From: Myxococcales bacterium 68-20
GTDB taxonomy: Bacteria; Myxococcota_A; Polyangia; Polyangiales; Polyangiaceae
Reading direction: 5' to 3'
Assembly (NCBI GenBank): GCA_001899635.1
Contig: MKVQ01000038.1
Location: forward strand, 1-64,000
DNA: 64,000 bases
Made by a program: the position numbers and the translations under genes. Positions 9,770-58,423 of the stretch are shown here, piece after piece. How positions within the stretch are numbered: the stretch's first letter is position 1; each line of letters opens with the position of its first letter. The notes under the pieces are model-generated. The model made no database searches. It was not told the origin of the DNA and worked only from the letters and a program-made list of their open reading frames with translations.

Positions 9770-12700
9770 TTACTGACGGCGCAGGATCATGTACCAGGCA
9801 TCCCAGCTCGTGCCCGTCGGGGGCGTGAGGGTGATCGTCGTCTCGATCGAGGCGGCGAGCGCGAAGCGCAGGTAGCTCGCGCCGCCTCCTCGGGCGAGAT
9901 TGAGCGATACCGGGACGTCACGCGTGAGCGCCGGCGTCTGGAGCGGGAAGCCGCCGAGCCCGCCGTAGACGGAGCGAAAGCTCCAGCTGGAGGTCCGATA
10001 CGGCAGCGTCGCAATGTCCAGGTTCGCGATCGCCGTGTCGTCGATGTAGACGGCGGCGAGGAAGTCGCGCATCCAGAGGCTCGCGCCGCCTCCGATCCGC
10101 TCGTTCAGGTTGGTGAGACCGGTCGTCGATGCGTTCGCGAGCTGGTAGAGGAAGGTCGCCTCCGCAGCCGAGCTCCCGGCGGCGATGCGATCTGCGGAGT
10201 AGCGCACGAAGCTCCACGCCAGGCCTCGCTGGCCGACGTCCGCCGTCGTTCCGTCGACGAAGCCAACGCGTGCCGGCACCTTCATCCACTCGCGCAGTCG
10301 GGTGAATAGCGGGGTCTCGTAGCTGTTGAAGGCATTGACCCGTGTCGAGGCGTTGGGCCCCGTCGTCAGGTCCGTGAGGAGGATGTTCATCCCCGGAGCG
10401 AGCCCGACGCTTGCTCCGTAGAAGGCGCGCTCCTCGGCGATGCCGGCCAGTCCCTCGTCGAGCCAGCTCTCTTCGAACGGCCACCCCGCGCTCATGCGCC
10501 GCGAGTCGATGATCAGATGGCCGAGCTCGTGCGCAATCGGATTGAGGGTCGTGGTCTCCACGGCGCTGACAGTGCGGACGACGGGGCCGCTCGTCGCCGT
10601 CGGGTCGGCCGCCATGACGTAGATGATCTCGCCATGGTTGCTGGTGGGGCATTCGACCTGGCTCGACAGATCGCGCGGGCGGTACTGCGCCCATGCGCTG
10701 GCTGCATTGTCGGTGACGTGCGCGTTGACTGCAGCGGTGAAGAACAGGACCACGCGCCCGTTGCCGTCGACGTCCGTGGGGGCACCGAAGACGCCGCTGA
10801 CGGAGGGGTAGATCACGTTGTCGAACTTCGAGCCGAGCGTCTCGTACTGGGGCGTGGTCAGGCCGCCGGGCGGATTGGCGTTGTCCGTGACGATGATCGC
10901 GTGCGTTCCGACGTACCTCACGGTCCCGGTTCGCGCGGTTCCCGAAGCACACTGGGTACCGAGCTCGCCGTTGAGTGACCAGGTAGCGCCCACGACGGGC
11001 ACGCCGGTCGGGATGCGCGACGTGGGCGAGACAGGCGTCCCCGAGCCCGTGGTTCCAAGGCGTGAAACGACCTCCGCCGTATGCGCCGTGCGCGAAGCCG
11101 TGTGCGTGTCCACGACCGCGGCGGGCGTCGAGGTCGTGCCCGTGAGCGTGGCGAGGTTGTTCGCGACCACCGTGAGTGGATACGAGGCCCCCTGCGTGAG
11201 GTTCATCGGGATCAGCACGTACTCGGCCGTCGAGCCGCTCGGGTTCTCGATGCACACGCTCGACCTCGTATTCGGTCGGGCCATGATGGTGCCGCCCACC
11301 GCGAGGCTCTCGCAGGCAGAGCACGAGACACCGTCACCGTTCAGGCCCGCATTGCAGGCGCAGCTGAAGCTCCCAGCGGTGTTGGTGCAGGCAGCGTCGG
11401 CATGGCAGTCGTCCGTGCCGGTCGCGCACTCGTCGATGTCCGTGCATCCCGTCTCGCCGGTGCCGGAGTAGCCGCTCGGGCACGCACTGCAGGTGAAGCC
11501 GCCCGGCGTGTTCGTGCAGGTGGTGAGCGCGTCGCAGCCGTAGCCGGTTGCGCACTCGTCGATGTCGATGCATCCGGAGGCGCCGGAGCCTGAGTAGCCG
11601 CTCGGGCACGCGCCGCAGGTGAAGCTGCCGGCTGTGTTCGTGCAAGTCGTGAGGGCGTCGCAGCCGCCGTTGCCGGTCGCGCACTCGTCGATGTCGATGC
11701 ATCCGGAGGCGCCGCCGCCGGTGTAGCCGCTCGGGCATGCACCGCAGGTGAAGCCGCCGGGCGTGTTCGTGCAGGTGGTGAGGGCGTCGCAGCCGCCGTT
11801 GCCGGTTGCGCACTCGTCGATGTCCATGCAGCCCGTTGCGCCGGTGCCGGAGTAGCCGCTCGGGCAGTGACCGCAGATGAAGCCGCCGGGTGTGTTCGTG
11901 CAGGTGGTGAGCGCGTCGCAGCCGCCGTTGTTCGACGTGCATTCGTCGACGTCCGTGCATCCCGAGGCGCCGGTGCCGGTGTGGCCGCTCGGGCAAGCGC
12001 CACAGGTAAAGCCGCCGGGGGTATTGGTGCAGGTGGTGAGCGCATCGCAACCGCCGTTGTTGGTCGCGCACTCGTTGATGTCCATGCATCCCGAGGCGCC
12101 GGTGCCGGAGTAGCCGCTCGGGCACGCGCCGCAGGTGAAGCTGCCGGCCGTGTTCGTGCAGGTCGTGAGCGCATCACAGCCGCCGTTCGCGCTCACGCAC
12201 TCGTCGATGTCGATGCAGCCCGTCGCGCCCGTGCCGAGGTAGCCGCTCGGGCATGCTCCGCAGGTGAAGCTGCCGAGAGTGTTCGTGCAGGTCGTGAGCG
12301 CGTCGCAGCCGCCGTTGGCGGTCCCGCACTCGTCGATGTCCGAGCATCCGGTCGCGCCGCCGCCGGAGTAGCCGCTCGGGCATGCGCCGCAGGTGAAGCT
12401 GCCGGCCGTGTTCGTGCAGGTCGTCAGCGCATCGCAGCCGCCGTTGCCGGTCGCGCATTCGTCGATGTCCGTACAGCCTGTCGAGCCGGTGCCCGCGAAG
12501 CCGCTCGGGCAATGGCCGCACGTGAAGCCTCCCACGGTGTTGATGCACGTCGTTAGCACGTCGCAGCCGCCGTTGTTGGTCGCGCACTCGTCGACGTCGA
12601 CGCAGCCCGTCTCGCCGTTGCCCGTGTACCCGCTCGGGCAAGCGCCGCAGGTGAAGCCGCCGACCGTGTTCGTGCACGTCGTTCGCGCGTCGCAGCCGCC

Positions 12701-13762
12701 GTTGTTGGTCGCGCACTCGTCGACATCGACGCATCCGCTCGCGCCGGTGCCCGCGAAGCCGCTCGGGCACGCGCCACAGGCGAAGCTGCCAGCCGTGTTT
12801 GTGCATGTCGCGAGCACGTCGCAGCCGCCGTTGTTGGCCGCGCACTCGTCGACGTCGTCGCATCCCGTCGCGCCGGTGCCCGTGAAGCCGCTCGGGCAAG
12901 CGCCACAGGTGAAGCCGCCGGGGGTGTTCACGCATGTCGTGAGCACGTCGCATCCGCCGTTGGCGGTCCCGCACTCGTTGATGTCCACGCATCCCGTCGA
13001 GCCGTTGCCGATGTAGCCGCTCGGGCAAGCGCCGCAGGTGAAGCTTCCGGCCGTGTTCGTGCAGGTGGTGAGCGCGTCACAGCCGCCGTTGCTCGTCGCG
13101 CACTCGTCGATGTCCGTGCAGCCGGTCGCGCCGCCGCCGGTGTACCCGCTCGGGCAGGAGCCGCAGGTGAAGCCGCCGGGCGTGTTCGTGCACTCTGCGA
13201 CGGGATCGCAGCCGCCGTTGCTCGTCGCGCACTCGTCGATGTCCGTGCAGCCGGTCTTCCCGGTGCCCGCGTACCCGCTCGGGCAATGACCGCAGGTGAA
13301 GCCGCCGGCCGTGTTGAGGCACGTCGTTCGCGCGTCGCAGCCGCCGTTGTCGACCGCGCACTCGTCGATGTCGCGACAGCCCGTGGTGCCGGTCCCCGTG
13401 TAGCCCTTCGGGCACGCACCGCAGGTGAAGCCGCCCGGCGTGTTCGTACAGGTGGTGAGCGCATCGCAGCCGCCATGGTTCTGCGCGCATTCATCGATGT
13501 CGGCGCATTCGGCGCCGCGCGCCTCGAAGCCGGGCGTGCAGGAGAGGTCGAAGCGCCCACCCTCCGGGAGCACCAGCGCATGAGGAGGCTTCGCTTCATT
13601 GTCCCCCGGCCGCATGGTGAGCTCGCTCTTGTTGCTCACCTTTTGCGAGCAGCTCGCCATGCCCGCTACGACGAGGAGCAGCGCGCCGAGAACCTTCGCA
13701 CCCTGGGAATCAGGCGTGGTCGCTCGTCGATGACTGCGCGTTCTCGATAGACCTGTCCACAT
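9770..13762 (-). CDS. EGF-repeat secreted zinc metallopeptidase (M30-like), lipoprotein
   Basis: A 1330-residue surface protein. The ATG at 13762 precedes a signal ending VVAGMASCS, a lipobox. Residues about 87-815 are 17 tandem EGF-like modules. Each starts D-[IV]-[DN]-E-C, the calcium-binding EGF consensus, followed by NGGCDALTTCTNT and CGACPSGY. Module 16 lacks one residue before its second cysteine, and module 17 is divergent. The C-terminal 500 residues hold HELGH (1078-1082), the zinc-binding HExxH motif. WLDEGLA follows about 20 residues later, in which E1103 is the likely third ligand. This arrangement resembles hyicolysin-type M30 peptidases. A beta-sandwich-like tail (last 100 residues) closes the protein. 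The upstream frame to 15433 is antisense to the reductase gene and was not used. Confidence 0.85.
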   Translation of the reverse strand: MWTGLSRTRSHRRATTPDSQGAKVLGALLLVVAGMASCSQKVSNKSELTMRPGDNEAKPPHALVLPEGGRFDLSCTPGFEARGAECADIDECAQNHGGCDALTTCTNTPGGFTCGACPKGYTGTGTTGCRDIDECAVDNGGCDARTTCLNTAGGFTCGHCPSGYAGTGKTGCTDIDECATSNGGCDPVAECTNTPGGFTCGSCPSGYTGGGATGCTDIDECATSNGGCDALTTCTNTAGSFTCGACPSGYIGNGSTGCVDINECGTANGGCDVLTTCVNTPGGFTCGACPSGFTGTGATGCDDVDECAANNGGCDVLATCTNTAGSFACGACPSGFAGTGASGCVDVDECATNNGGCDARTTCTNTVGGFTCGACPSGYTGNGETGCVDVDECATNNGGCDVLTTCINTVGGFTCGHCPSGFAGTGSTGCTDIDECATGNGGCDALTTCTNTAGSFTCGACPSGYSGGGATGCSDIDECGTANGGCDALTTCTNTLGSFTCGACPSGYLGTGATGCIDIDECVSANGGCDALTTCTNTAGSFTCGACPSGYSGTGASGCMDINECATNNGGCDALTTCTNTPGGFTCGACPSGHTGTGASGCTDVDECTSNNGGCDALTTCTNTPGGFICGHCPSGYSGTGATGCMDIDECATGNGGCDALTTCTNTPGGFTCGACPSGYTGGGASGCIDIDECATGNGGCDALTTCTNTAGSFTCGACPSGYSGSGASGCIDIDECATGYGCDALTTCTNTPGGFTCSACPSGYSGTGETGCTDIDECATGTDDCHADAACTNTAGSFSCACNAGLNGDGVSCSACESLAVGGTIMARPNTRSSVCIENPSGSTAEYVLIPMNLTQGASYPLTVVANNLATLTGTTSTPAAVVDTHTASRTAHTAEVVSRLGTTGSGTPVSPTSRIPTGVPVVGATWSLNGELGTQCASGTARTGTVRYVGTHAIIVTDNANPPGGLTTPQYETLGSKFDNVIYPSVSGVFGAPTDVDGNGRVVLFFTAAVNAHVTDNAASAWAQYRPRDLSSQVECPTSNHGEIIYVMAADPTATSGPVVRTVSAVETTTLNPIAHELGHLIIDSRRMSAGWPFEESWLDEGLAGIAEERAFYGASVGLAPGMNILLTDLTTGPNASTRVNAFNSYETPLFTRLREWMKVPARVGFVDGTTADVGQRGLAWSFVRYSADRIAAGSSAAEATFLYQLANASTTGLTNLNERIGGGASLWMRDFLAAVYIDDTAIANLDIATLPYRTSSWSFRSVYGGLGGFPLQTPALTRDVPVSLNLARGGGASYLRFALAASIETTITLTPPTGTSWDAWYMILRRQ
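11318..13502 (-). repeat. 17-unit coding repeat (EGF modules)
   Basis: Seventeen units of about 123-129 bases encode the EGF-like modules of the metallopeptidase. Neighbouring units are highly similar at DNA level, for instance the recurring text gtgttcgtgcaggtcgtgagcgc. This suggests recent duplication or gene conversion and makes the block prone to copy-number change and mis-assembly. Confidence 0.9.
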
Positions 13763-14005: not shown

Positions 14006-17000
14006 ATGATCCCGCCGAGCGACGAGGGCCCCGAAACCCAACCGGAGCCGTCGAACGACGCGCTTCTCCAGCGGACGCGCGAGCGTCTGAAGCGTCTGCT
14101 CGCGCACGACCCCGAGCTTGCAGTCTCGCAGCCCGACGCTGAGGCCGTCGCGGCGATCCACGCATCTGCCACCACGATCGAGACCGTAGCAAAGGCGTTC
14201 GAGCTCTACGCCGACCGCCCCTTCGTCGCAGAGCGCGCTTACGAGTGCGAGGCGGATGGAAGCGTTCGTCTCTTGCCGGAGCTTCGCAGGCATCGGTATC
14301 GCGACGTCTGGGCGCGCGTGGAGGCGTTCGCCAGCGGCCTCACGCACCAGAAGCTCGCTGGGCCAGGCAGCTTCATCGGCATCTGCGGCTTCGGCAGCGT
14401 CGACTGGGTCGTCGCCGACCTTGCCGCCATCCGTCTCGCCGCCGTGTCGGTCCCGATGCAGACGAACATGAGCCCGGCCGATCTGCAGCAGATCATCGGC
14501 GAGGCCGAGCTCTCCCTGATCGTCTGCAGCGTCGAGCAGCTCGATTCCATCGAGGCCGTGCTCCCTCGCTGCCCGTCGGTGAAGAGCCTCGTCGTGATGG
14601 ACCTGCGTGAGGGGGACAGCGCCGCCGAGGCGATGTTCGAGCGCCGCAAGCAGGCGGGGCTCGCTGAGAGCGGCGCCGTCGTGCTCACGATGCGTGAGGT
14701 CGAGGAGCGGGGACGCTCCGCAGGGATCGTCCCGATGGTCTTGCCGGCATCGCGCGGCGAGCCCGATCCCCTGATGACCCTCATCTACACCTCGGGCTCC
14801 ACCGGGACCCCGAAGGGCGCGATCGTGACGGAGCGCTTGCTCCGCGAGCAGTGGCAGCGGGGCTTCTTCTACCGGCTCGGTGACGCGCTTCCGGAGCTCC
14901 CGCAGATCACGCTGGGCTACATGCCGCTGAATCACGCTGCCGGTCGGATGAACGTCATGATGACGGTCCTCCGCGGGGGGATGATGGCGTTCGTCGCGAA
15001 GAGCGACATGTCGACGTTGTTCGATGACTTCCGGCTCGCGCGCCCGACGATGGCGATGCTGGTGCCGCGCGTGTCCGCGACGATCTACCAGCACTATCAG
15101 GCGGAGCTCGTTCGACGTACGGAGGACGTGACGGACGAGGGAGAGCGGGCGCGGATCTCGGATCGGATCATGGAAGAGATGCGCGGCTCGTTCCTCGGCG
15201 ACCGCCTCTTGCTCGTGACCACGAGCACCGCGCCGACGCCGCCGGAGGTCGCCGACTTCCTCCGCCGCTGCTTCCTCGTTCCCGTCATCGACCTGTACGG
15301 CTCGACGGAGGCAGGCCTCGTGACGCTCGACGATCGCCTCGTCCCGGCTCCGGGCCTCGAGTGGAAGCTCGTCGACGTTCCCGAGCTCGGCTACCGGACG
15401 ACCGATCGCCCATACCCGCGCGGCGAGCTCCACGTGAAGTCACGCTTCCTCGTCCCGGGCTACTACAAGAACGAGCGTGCGACGCGTGACCTCTTCGACG
15501 ACGAAGGCTTCCTGAACACGGGGGACATCGTCGAGCAGCGAGGGCCCGACCGACTCTTGTGGATCGATCGCGCCAGGAACGTCCTCAAGCTCGCGCAGGG
15601 AGAGTTCGTCGCGACGTCACGCCTCGAGGGCATCTTCAGCGCGCAGAGCCCGTACATCCGGCAGATCTACGTGCATGGGAGCGGCTTTCGCTCGTATCTC
15701 CTCGCCGTCGTCGTTCCCAATCTCCCAGCGGTGACGGCGTACCTCCGCGGTCGAGGGATCGAGCCGGACGACGCCGCGATCAAGGAGCTCGTCCGGAGTG
15801 AGATCCACCGCATCGCCCGCGATGAGCACCTACGCGGCCACGAGGTGCCGCGCGACTTCATCATCGAGCGCGAGCCGTTCACGATCGCGCGCGGCCTGCT
15901 CACCGACAGCAACAAGCAGTCACGGCCTCGCCTGGCGGCGCGTTACGGCAAGGACCTCGCGGCGCGGTACACCGCGATCGAGCGGGCGCAGATCGAGGAG
16001 CTCTACGGCCTCCACAGCAAGGGCGTGACGACTGCGACGATCGCCGAGCGCGTCAAGCGAGCGATGAGCGTCGTGCTCGGTCTCCCGGAGCTCGACGTCC
16101 GTCAGAGCGAACAGAGCTTCATCCAGCTCGGCGGCGATTCGCTCAGCGCCGTCAGCCTCGAGACGCTGATCCACGATCTGACCGGCGTTCGTGTGCCCGT
16201 GGGCTTCCTCCTCGATCCGACGAGCAGCGTCCACTCGCTCGTCGAGTACGTCGAGGGGGCGCTCGCCGGCAAGGTACGCCGCAACGTCACGTTCGCGGAG
16301 GTGCACGGCGCCGGCGCGAAGTCCGTCCGGGCCGAGGACCTCCGGATCGAGAAGTTTCTAGGTCCCGAGGAGATCGAAGCTGCGCGCGCCTCGAAGCCGG
16401 CCAGCGAGCTACCGGCGCGGGCCGAGGTCGCGTTGCTCACGGGGGCGAACGGGTTCCTCGGAAGGTTCCTCACCCTCGAGCTCCTCGAGCGGCTCTCGGG
16501 CGAGCGGAAGAAGGTCTACGCGCTCGTGCGCGCCCCGAGCGACGCGGCTGCGTTCGAGCGTCTCGCCAGCTCGTACCGCATGGATCCGGCGCTCTCACGA
16601 CGCTTCGACGAGCTGTCGGCCGGCGGGCGCCTCACGGTGCTCGCCGGCGATCTGATGAAGCCGCGCCTCGGCCTCGCCGAGGACGTCTACGCTCGTCTCG
16701 CAGAGGAGGTCGACCTCGTCCTCCACAACGGGGCGCTGGTGAACCATGCGCTCGGCTACGCGGCGATGTTCGAGCCGAACGTGCTCGGCACCGTCGAGGT
16801 GATGCGCTTCGCGCTCGCGCGGCGCATCAAGTCGATGTCGTTCATCTCGACCATCGCGGTGCTCTATGGCGTCGACCGGACCGAGCCGGTCCGTGAGGAC
16901 GAGGATGTGCGTACGCTCTTCACCGAGCGTCCCACCGAGGCCGGCTACGCGGCGGGATACGGCGGGACCAAGTGGGCAGGCGAGCTCCTCCTGCGTGACG

Positions 17001-17665
17001 CGCACGAAAAGCTCGGTCTCCCGGTGGCGGTGTTCCGCCCGAGCGAGATCATGGCGCACCGTCGCTATCACGGGCAGGTGAACGTCCCCGACTTCTTCAC
17101 CCGGCTGCTCGCAGGCATCGTCTACACCGGCCTCGCGCCCCGGTCGTTCTATACGGCGGACGCTCCCGAGCGCGCGAAGCACTATGACGGCACGCCGGTC
17201 GACGTCGTCGCCCGGTCGATCGCGACGCTCTCGATCGCGCGCGGCGGAGGCGAGGCTGCGCGTCCCGCCGTCCGTGCGACGTACGATACGTATCACGTGG
17301 TCAATCCCCACCAGGACGACGGGATCTCGCTCGACGTCATCGTCCACTGGGTGAAGACGGCGGGCTACCCGGCGAAGCGGATCGCCGACTACGACACTTG
17401 GTACAAGATGTTCCGCGAGCGTCTCACGTCGCTCGCCGAACCGAAGCGCCAGCACTCGCCGCTCGCGATCCTCCATGCCTGGGAGCACCCGCAGGGGGAT
17501 CACGGGCAGCCCGTGCTCGACACCACTCACATCCTCGAGCGCCTCCGCAGCATCGAGCCGAGCCTGGCCGACTTCCCGCACGTGAGCGAGGCGTTCATCC
17601 ACAAGGAGCTCGACGACATGGCGGTGCTGCACCTCATCGATCGGCCGTTGCGGATGGCGGGCTGA
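14006..17665 (+). CDS. Carboxylic acid reductase (adenylation - carrier - NADPH reductase)
   Basis: A 1219-residue three-domain enzyme that activates a carboxylic acid with ATP, loads it on a phosphopantetheine arm, and reduces the thioester to an aldehyde with NADPH. The adenylation domain (about 60-640) shows YTSGSTGTPKG (261-271) and DLYGSTE. The carrier domain has LGGDSLSA with attachment Ser712. The reductase domain has the nucleotide motif TGANGFLGR (about 811-819) and the catalytic YGGTK with Y985 and K989. Its length matches Nocardia/Mycobacterium CARs. A phosphopantetheinyl transferase is needed but is not nearby. The substrate cannot be read from the sequence: fatty, aromatic or a polyketide-derived acid are all possible. 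It stands alone, with no biosynthetic cluster around it. Confidence 0.9.
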   Translation: MIPPSDEGPETQPEPSNDALLQRTRERLKRLLAHDPELAVSQPDAEAVAAIHASATTIETVAKAFELYADRPFVAERAYECEADGSVRLLPELRRHRYRDVWARVEAFASGLTHQKLAGPGSFIGICGFGSVDWVVADLAAIRLAAVSVPMQTNMSPADLQQIIGEAELSLIVCSVEQLDSIEAVLPRCPSVKSLVVMDLREGDSAAEAMFERRKQAGLAESGAVVLTMREVEERGRSAGIVPMVLPASRGEPDPLMTLIYTSGSTGTPKGAIVTERLLREQWQRGFFYRLGDALPELPQITLGYMPLNHAAGRMNVMMTVLRGGMMAFVAKSDMSTLFDDFRLARPTMAMLVPRVSATIYQHYQAELVRRTEDVTDEGERARISDRIMEEMRGSFLGDRLLLVTTSTAPTPPEVADFLRRCFLVPVIDLYGSTEAGLVTLDDRLVPAPGLEWKLVDVPELGYRTTDRPYPRGELHVKSRFLVPGYYKNERATRDLFDDEGFLNTGDIVEQRGPDRLLWIDRARNVLKLAQGEFVATSRLEGIFSAQSPYIRQIYVHGSGFRSYLLAVVVPNLPAVTAYLRGRGIEPDDAAIKELVRSEIHRIARDEHLRGHEVPRDFIIEREPFTIARGLLTDSNKQSRPRLAARYGKDLAARYTAIERAQIEELYGLHSKGVTTATIAERVKRAMSVVLGLPELDVRQSEQSFIQLGGDSLSAVSLETLIHDLTGVRVPVGFLLDPTSSVHSLVEYVEGALAGKVRRNVTFAEVHGAGAKSVRAEDLRIEKFLGPEEIEAARASKPASELPARAEVALLTGANGFLGRFLTLELLERLSGERKKVYALVRAPSDAAAFERLASSYRMDPALSRRFDELSAGGRLTVLAGDLMKPRLGLAEDVYARLAEEVDLVLHNGALVNHALGYAAMFEPNVLGTVEVMRFALARRIKSMSFISTIAVLYGVDRTEPVREDEDVRTLFTERPTEAGYAAGYGGTKWAGELLLRDAHEKLGLPVAVFRPSEIMAHRRYHGQVNVPDFFTRLLAGIVYTGLAPRSFYTADAPERAKHYDGTPVDVVARSIATLSIARGGGEAARPAVRATYDTYHVVNPHQDDGISLDVIVHWVKTAGYPAKRIADYDTWYKMFRERLTSLAEPKRQHSPLAILHAWEHPQGDHGQPVLDTTHILERLRSIEPSLADFPHVSEAFIHKELDDMAVLHLIDRPLRMAG

Positions 17666-57430: not shown

Positions 57431-58423
57431 ATGTTCAAGCTCCATCGTGTTTCGCAAGGTCGTGTTCCATTGCTCTCTGTTGCGTTCGTTGCGCTCGGGC
57501 TCGCACTCGGCGGCTGCTCGAGCCCTAGCGGAGAGAGCTCCCCGCTGGTCGCGGGCGCGCCGGCGGAGAAACCCGGACCCGAGAGTGCACCGCCGCCCGG
57601 GAGTGAGGCTCCACCTCCGCCCGCTTCGGACACCATCGCCGGCGACGTCGGATCGACCACGCCGGAGGGCGACCCGGGCGCCGCGGACAAGCCGGCGGGC
57701 GACGATCCGGCGGGCGACAAGCCGGCGGGCGACAAGCCGGCGGGCGACAAGCCGGCGGGCGACAAGCCAGCGGGCGACAAGCCAGCGGGCGACAAGCCAG
57801 CGGGCGACAAGCCGGCGGGCGACGAGCCGGTGCAGGATCCGCCCGAGGATCCCTTCGCGAACATGCCCGGGTTCGACAATCCGTTCGGGAACCAGAACCA
57901 GGATCCGTTCGGGAACAACAACAACAACAACAACCCGTTCGGGAACCAGAACCAGGATCCGTTCGGGAACAACAACAACAACAACAACCCGTTCGGGAAC
58001 AACAACAACAACAACAACCCGTTCGGGAACAACAACAACAACCCGTTCGGGAACAACAACAACAACAACCCGTTCGGGAACAACAACAACAACAACAACC
58101 CGTTCGGGAACAACAACAACAACAACCCGTTCGGCGGGAATCAGAACGATCCGTTCAACCAGAACAACCCGTTCAACCAGAACAACCCGTTCGGCGGGAA
58201 CCAGAACAACCCGTTCAACAACCCGTTCAACGCGAACAACCCCAACAGTCCGTTCAACGCGACCAACCCGAACAGCCCGTTCAGCCCCTTCAACAACCCA
58301 GCCCTCAACCCGGCTGCGAATCCGATGGGCGGCCTCGGAGGCTTTGGTGGTCTCGGCGGTCTCGGAGGCTTCGGCGGTCTCGGAGGCTTCGGCGGCGGGT
58401 GTGGTGGCATGGGCTGCCTTTGA
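57431..58423 (+). CDS. Asn-rich low-complexity lipoprotein
   Basis: A 330-residue lipoprotein (signal LGLALGGCSSP). A strong gggagg lies 10-15 bases before the ATG. The mature chain is entirely low complexity. Residues about 25-85 are Pro/Glu/Ala-rich. Residues about 87-132 are nine copies of P-A-G-D-[KDE]. Residues about 150-290 alternate runs of 4-7 Asn with N-P-F-G, plus N-Q-N-Q-D-P-F and N-P-F-N. The C-terminus is GGFGGLGG repeats ending CGGMGCL. No enzyme motif exists. Asn-rich stretches like these are prion-like in composition. It could form a surface coat or adhesive. The antisense frame is a Leu/Pro shadow. Confidence 0.75.
   Translation: MFKLHRVSQGRVPLLSVAFVALGLALGGCSSPSGESSPLVAGAPAEKPGPESAPPPGSEAPPPPASDTIAGDVGSTTPEGDPGAADKPAGDDPAGDKPAGDKPAGDKPAGDKPAGDKPAGDKPAGDKPAGDEPVQDPPEDPFANMPGFDNPFGNQNQDPFGNNNNNNNPFGNQNQDPFGNNNNNNNPFGNNNNNNNPFGNNNNNPFGNNNNNNPFGNNNNNNNPFGNNNNNNPFGGNQNDPFNQNNPFNQNNPFGGNQNNPFNNPFNANNPNSPFNATNPNSPFSPFNNPALNPAANPMGGLGGFGGLGGLGGFGGLGGFGGGCGGMGCL
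57692..57828 (+). repeat. Nine-unit 15-bp coding repeat (PAGDK)
   Basis: Nearly identical units ccggcgggcgacaag repeat in tandem; two or three have ccagcg instead of ccggcg. Such short perfect units are prone to slippage, so unit number may vary between strains. Confidence 0.85.
57878..58270 (+). repeat. Asn-run coding repeat (aac triplets with ccgttcggg)
   Basis: Runs of four to seven aac triplets alternate with ccgttcggg (N-P-F-G). The aac runs are AT-richer than anything else nearby. Slippage could change their length without a frameshift. Confidence 0.8.

Follow-up and report, generated by a model that had tools for sequence, protein, structure and literature searches.

The window analysed here, the 64,000 nucleotides at positions 1 to 64,000 of contig MKVQ01000038.1 from Myxococcales bacterium 68-20 (a genome of 11.9 Mb in 52 contigs), carries on its minus strand a gene that joins 17 calcium-binding epidermal growth factor (cbEGF) modules of the EGF_CA type to a C-terminal region homologous to lugdulysin, a metalloprotease of Staphylococcus lugdunensis. 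The frame opens with an ATG at 13762 and closes with a stop codon at 9770–9772, exactly where an earlier, sequence-only reading of this DNA had placed the coding sequence. The parts of the gene are the following.

9770..13762, minus strand: whole coding sequence, 1330 amino acids plus stop; 17 EGF_CA matches lie inside the frame
13652..13762, minus strand: predicted signal peptide, residues 1–37, with the hydrophobic stretch VLGALLLVVAGMAS (from the sequence and a lax lipobox pattern)
13502..13651, minus strand: residues 38–87, predicted lipidated Cys38, linker and a half EGF-like motif, CTPGFEARGAEC, ahead of module 1 (from the sequence)
11321..13501, minus strand: 17 EGF_CA modules, residues 88–814 (from profile matches and motif counts)
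9773..11320, minus strand: C-terminal lugdulysin-like metallopeptidase region, residues 815–1330, about 515 residues (from homology)
10517..10531, minus strand: HELGH, predicted zinc-binding and catalytic motif, residues 1078–1082 (from sequence and alignment)
10454..10456, minus strand: Glu1103 in WLDEGLA, predicted third zinc ligand (invariant in 16 of 16 alignment rows)

The EGF_CA identity of the modules is certain. PF07645, run against the genome that holds the window, gave 17 separate matches over the curated cut-off inside the gene, hmmscan returned EGF_CA at an E-value of 9.6e-138 in 17 stretches, and D-x-[DN]-E-C, the calcium consensus, occurs 17 times in the protein against a mean of 0.03 in 1000 shuffles. 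As no shuffle held more than one copy, a chance origin of the array motif is ruled out, and the seventeen calcium-type modules that had been proposed from the letters alone are borne out by matches and motifs alike. Every module has six cysteines, the calcium consensus and C-x-N-x4-F; disulfides in EGF_CA domains pair C1–C3, C2–C4 and C5–C6. At the DNA level, Tandem Repeats Finder delimits 16.0 copies of a 129-bp unit at 11416–13474 (82% matches). Modules 1–16 share a mean amino acid identity of 77%, with outliers in length or cysteine spacing only among the last two modules of the array. They also share a C4-x-x-C5 spacing, known from thrombospondin/COMP, and module 17 has C4-x-C5. The gap from C6 to the next C1 is five residues at all 16 junctions, a linker length that occurs in fibrillin rods.

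The fourth residue after C5 is tyrosine or phenylalanine in 15 of the 17 modules (15 of the 16 that precede another module), the exceptions being histidine in module 12 and leucine in module 17, which precedes no EGF. The orthologues in G003 and G006, two further genomes of the window's genus, agree, with the aromatic in 12/13 and 17/18 modules, respectively, and the last module as the exception. These 31 orthologue modules were cut at the calcium motif itself, yet they are contiguous at 42–44 residues, so none lacks the motif. A study of Notch1 describes this aromatic as the packing residue between cbEGFs and links histidine at the position to a bent junction (PMC4826273); a bend after module 12 is therefore possible. 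A second source (PMC7545174) states that tandem cbEGFs become rigid, extended rods once calcium is bound, a view that it says newer observations challenge. Consensus and packing aromatics together suggest that the array forms a calcium-stiffened rod.

The solved chains closest to the array are those of ADGRE5/CD97 (1.9e-34), NELL2 and Notch1. With these and fibrillin, the classic tandem cbEGF proteins of animals, it shares the calcium consensus, the packing aromatic and the short linker. It differs from them in being bacterial, in having modules that are much more alike, in its fusion to a peptidase and in the C4-x-x-C5 spacing of 16/17 modules; its linkers have five residues versus six in Notch1 (PMC4826273). 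An AlphaFold2 model of modules 9–12 reached a predicted local distance difference test score (pLDDT) of 53, with a helix turn and hairpin repeated in each module (the other four models scored 34–38). Foldseek matched the four-module model to NELL2, Notch1 and uromodulin at E-values of 7e-9 or weaker, with TM-scores by query of 0.2–0.3 and large root-mean-square deviations, on account of which we take the model as support for the type of module and not for a rod.

The C-terminal head aligns by phmmer with lugdulysin (PDB 7bb8) at 1.2e-8 over residues 130–301. A profile built from an alignment of 16 rows (A1: the window protein, its two orthologues and 13 distant homologues, among them L022 and L028, which missed the phmmer filter and were added by hand; L021, L025, L026 and L027 were left out) matches 7bb8 at 1.1e-20, and the homology spans about 170–240 residues. 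Both histidines of HExxH and the downstream glutamate are present in 16/16 rows of A1 and the glutamate of HExxH in 15/16. The distance of the glutamate ligand from HELGH had been set in advance as a test of the peptidase assignment; it is 20 residues in the window protein and its orthologues, against 22 in lugdulysin, and of the distant rows twelve have 23 and one has 26, which places the window protein within the range of its homologues. HExxH by itself says little: written as a degenerate DNA pattern, it matched 109 places in the genome, versus 66 for the reversed pattern. The peptidase case therefore rests on homology. The head is probably a zinc protease.

As for its family, lugdulysin is described as a novel metalloprotease in PMC6429511. 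The head itself has no match in Pfam, PF10460 (Peptidase_M30) included, and none in NCBIfam, and PF10460 matches only one of the 16 A1 rows, at an E-value of 0.079. Lugdulysin we take to be placed in MEROPS family M30; since PF10460 does not match the window's region, we call the head lugdulysin-like and not a member of M30. Thus, the HExxH metallopeptidase of the sequence-only reading gains a solved homologue and a conserved His/His/Glu set, and lacks a match to the Pfam M30 model. Lugdulysin was solved as a 410-residue chain, and the full protein presumably has no EGF modules. No paralogue of the head was found in the window's genome at an E-value of 0.01. Elsewhere, two lugdulysin-like frames adjoin each other (L019 and L018, in G031 and G064), the second carrying HELVH, with its glutamate at a shorter distance.

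At the other end of the protein, the residues MAS before Cys38, with methionine at −3, fit a lax lipoprotein pattern, and the preceding signal-peptide stretch has a mean hydrophobicity of 2.64. The complete orthologue in G006 carries LSGC, from which a lipid anchor is predicted more clearly, as well as a motif similar to the half EGF-like one ahead of module 1. The lipid anchor that had been suggested for this protein is thus upheld as a prediction, by the lax pattern and by the LSGC of G006, with lipidation itself still putative.

Both orthologues come from Labilithrix metagenome-assembled genomes (MAGs) and have heads about 60% identical to that of the window protein; the same match is encoded in the Labilithrix sp. 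MAG records ACE_MYX5 and ACE_MYX7. They share its layout, with 18 modules in G006 and at least 13 in G003, where 13 complete modules are followed by the contig end. At a threshold of 1e-5, the orthologue profile matches 15/183 genomes of the order, namely the window's, those of the two orthologues and 12 with distant heads. Within the genus the gene was found in 3/12 genomes; its absence from the remaining nine is uncertain, as some of these assemblies are incomplete (two of them stand at 72% and 88%). Comparison of the flanks revealed no shared neighbouring genes. For G006 it covered 5.4 kb on the upstream side and 1.1 kb on the downstream side, and for G003, where the contig breaks off within the gene, 8 kb downstream; blastp against the window returned only same-gene frames and a single 35% match, to a remote part of the window.

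Heads of this family reach much further than the stalk. The A1 profile finds them in at least 70 of 377 genomes of the phylum, a lower bound, as few candidates were scored per genome. Among 45 distinct head frames examined for a second fusion of this kind, the EGF calcium motif is present only in the window's own; these frames (50 rows with five repeated genes, the window's own included) are part of the phylum matches, and 18 stretches were mostly chosen for long frames. The motif was likewise found in 0/16 distant homologues of a separate examination, at least seven of which recur among the 45. Other lugdulysin-like proteins of Myxococcota, in the frames examined, are therefore like the window protein in the head and unlike it in lacking the cbEGF motif. 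The head is widespread in the phylum and the EGF stalk is seen in one genus, in three genomes.

A different cysteine-rich repeat, of about 45 residues with six cysteines as judged by eye and with no match in Pfam, precedes the heads of L021, L026, L097, L098 and L099. As homologous heads follow different cysteine-rich repeats, the stalk position appears to be open to more than one kind of spacer. In 12/16 distant homologues a hydrophobic stretch is followed by a lipobox, and a likely ancestor is for this reason a stalkless lipoprotein, into which different stalks would have been inserted.

Modules of the cbEGF type are not in themselves unusual in this part of the bacterial tree, with EGF_CA matches in 52/116 related genomes. 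Arrays there are joined to RCC1 (L041, L054), fibrinogen C (L049) and TSP_3 (L042) domains, and so resemble the window protein in the array and differ in the head. Closest in plan is L057 (G023:C134), in which one frame holds a subtilase end, 19 EGF_CA stretches and RCC1 repeats; here too a protease is joined to a cbEGF array, but it is a serine protease and lies on the N-terminal side. The window's genome itself has two further EGF_CA frames, one of 1345 amino acids with nine stretches followed by a glycine-rich region (L031, G000:C24:47699–48832) and one with three modules and a weak DUF4394 match (L032, G000:C15:81293–81694). A literature search on EGF domains in bacteria and myxobacteria, with most subscription journals outside its coverage, gave no bacterial cbEGF–peptidase fusion in titles or abstracts. 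The gene is a new domain architecture that combines two parts recurring in the group, and not a new kind of system.

How old is the array? The sequence-only reading had taken the modules to be very similar in DNA and therefore recently expanded. Nucleotide identity among modules 1–16 averages 81% (best pair 14/15, 91%). At fourfold silent sites, the fifteen 43-residue window modules are 0.671 identical versus 0.560 (standard deviation 0.010) in codon shuffles, that is, 67% against 56%, an excess over codon-usage expectation modest enough that a recent expansion of the whole array is not supported. The corresponding values are 0.672 versus 0.633 in G003 and 0.674 versus 0.643 in G006. Protein constraint and codon bias largely explain the likeness of the modules in DNA. 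As a yardstick, the heads of G003 and G006 have a silent identity of 0.859 (0.532 expected), and the window head has 0.508 and 0.591 with those of the two orthologues (0.453 and 0.475 expected); by these identities, the average silent-site divergence among window modules is about the same as that between the window and its relatives.

For all 16 window modules compared, the nearest neighbour lies within the window (for module 3 a G003 module is equally near, at 0.84), and nine of the 12 G003 modules have theirs in G006, a pattern that points to lineage-specific homogenisation or to an old expansion. Close neighbouring pairs do occur in the relatives (modules 7/8 of G003 at 95%, 12/13 of G006 at 96%), and copy number varies, with 18 modules in G006 versus 17 in the window.

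Other features of the window lie apart from the gene. Divergent from it, at 14006–17665 on the plus strand, a single frame combines AMP-binding, carrier and NAD-binding (male sterility type) domains and resembles carboxylic acid reductase. A 330-residue predicted lipoprotein at 57431–58423 on the plus strand has a lipobox-like LGGC, GDKPA repeats, a long NPFGNNNNN repeat tract and a glycine-rich end, a composition that looks prion-like by eye. An 85-bp unit is repeated twice in tandem at 2764–2933 (85% matches), and no RNA families were found between 8500 and 15000.

Taken together, we favour, with a probability of roughly 0.55, a lipid-anchored, stalked metalloprotease in which a calcium-stiffened tether holds a zinc peptidase outside the cell. 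What the sequences themselves show is the order of the domains, the calcium and packing consensus, the homology of the head to a solved zinc peptidase, and the conservation of the His, His and Glu positions and of the layout in the orthologues; the remainder of the model is inference. The chain would be exported and lipidated at Cys38, each of the 17 modules would form three disulfides, and calcium at the junctions would stack the modules into an extended rod. Its length would be very roughly 45 nm (a cbEGF module measures about 2.7 nm), perhaps with a bend after module 12, where histidine occupies the packing position. Such a rod would place the lugdulysin-like peptidase beyond the surface glycans, where it could cleave extracellular proteins of prey, of the matrix or of the cell itself; predation, which the sequence-only reading had named beside matrix remodelling as a possible role, is plausible for the group.

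Several observations weigh against this model, and some of them favour other explanations. In the stalk, the C4-x-x-C5 spacing of 16/17 modules deviates from the usual C4-x-C5, a phenylalanine or tyrosine between C3 and C4 is absent from 6/13 modules in G003 and 9/18 in G006, and the weak four-module model (pLDDT 53) gives no reliable rod geometry. In the Notch1 region of PMC4826273, most linkers, the rigid ones among them, have six residues, and the five-residue linker EGF9-10, equal in length to those of the array, is flexible. The array itself might instead serve to bind a partner, be it a glycan or protein of the matrix, a prey cell or a kin cell, with the peptidase in an accessory role, freeing the contact or processing what is bound. 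The closest solved relatives of the array, CD97, NELL2 and Notch1, are adhesion or ligand-binding proteins, and other cbEGF proteins in related genomes carry RCC1-like or fibrinogen-C-like domains. However, the uniformity of modules 1–16, with outliers only at the end of the array, is what one would expect of a spacer, and homologous heads have an unrelated cysteine-rich repeat at the same position. We consider an adhesin unlikely.

The head raises a different doubt, that it keeps the fold and acts as a binding module without catalysis. Twelve of the 45 head frames (L109–L112 and L115–L122; long, at 931–1686 amino acids, distant, weakly matching and chosen for length) lack HExxH in the matched region and are perhaps inactive or differently liganded relatives, one relative has HDLGH and another HEVAQ. 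PDB entry 7bb9 has E242Q Y315F in its title, and Tyr315, the catalytic tyrosine of lugdulysin, seems to align, by counting at a weak edge of the alignment, with the invariant Arg364 of the head region. On the fold itself, AlphaFold2 gives no usable model of the head (three alignment rows; pLDDT 31, predicted template modelling score 0.22). A pseudo-peptidase nevertheless strikes us as distinctly improbable, as HExxH and the glutamate are complete in the window protein and both orthologues, although the window differs from the two by about 40% in the head and its silent identity with them is close to that expected. It is harder still to credit a housekeeping lipoprotein of the periplasm or envelope, one that matures envelope proteins and is not exposed at the surface. 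A lipid anchor is predicted, albeit from a lipobox that in the window protein is not canonical, and the compared flanks contain nothing that points to a dedicated export system, nor any partner gene that points to a role. Yet EGF-free homologues are the common form among those examined, so the head does not need a stalk, and a rod of about 45 nm would exceed the usual periplasm.

The stalked surface protease that we favour might be taken one step further. In this decidedly doubtful extension, the reach of the enzyme would be set by a calcium-locked rod, in which calcium both stiffens and protects the stalk; loss of calcium would collapse the stalk or lay it open to cleavage by which the head is shed, and the family would swap cysteine-rich stalks, cbEGF in this gene and the other repeat elsewhere, at one fixed position. 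If true, it would be a prokaryotic parallel to the stalked ectoenzymes of animals. Since cbEGF arrays are a classic animal device for building calcium-stiffened rods, the gene lets one ask whether bacteria build the same and whether a bacterial cbEGF rod keeps an enzyme at a distance from its anchor. The gene further directs attention to an unannotated family of peptidase-like proteins in Myxococcota with exchangeable stalks.

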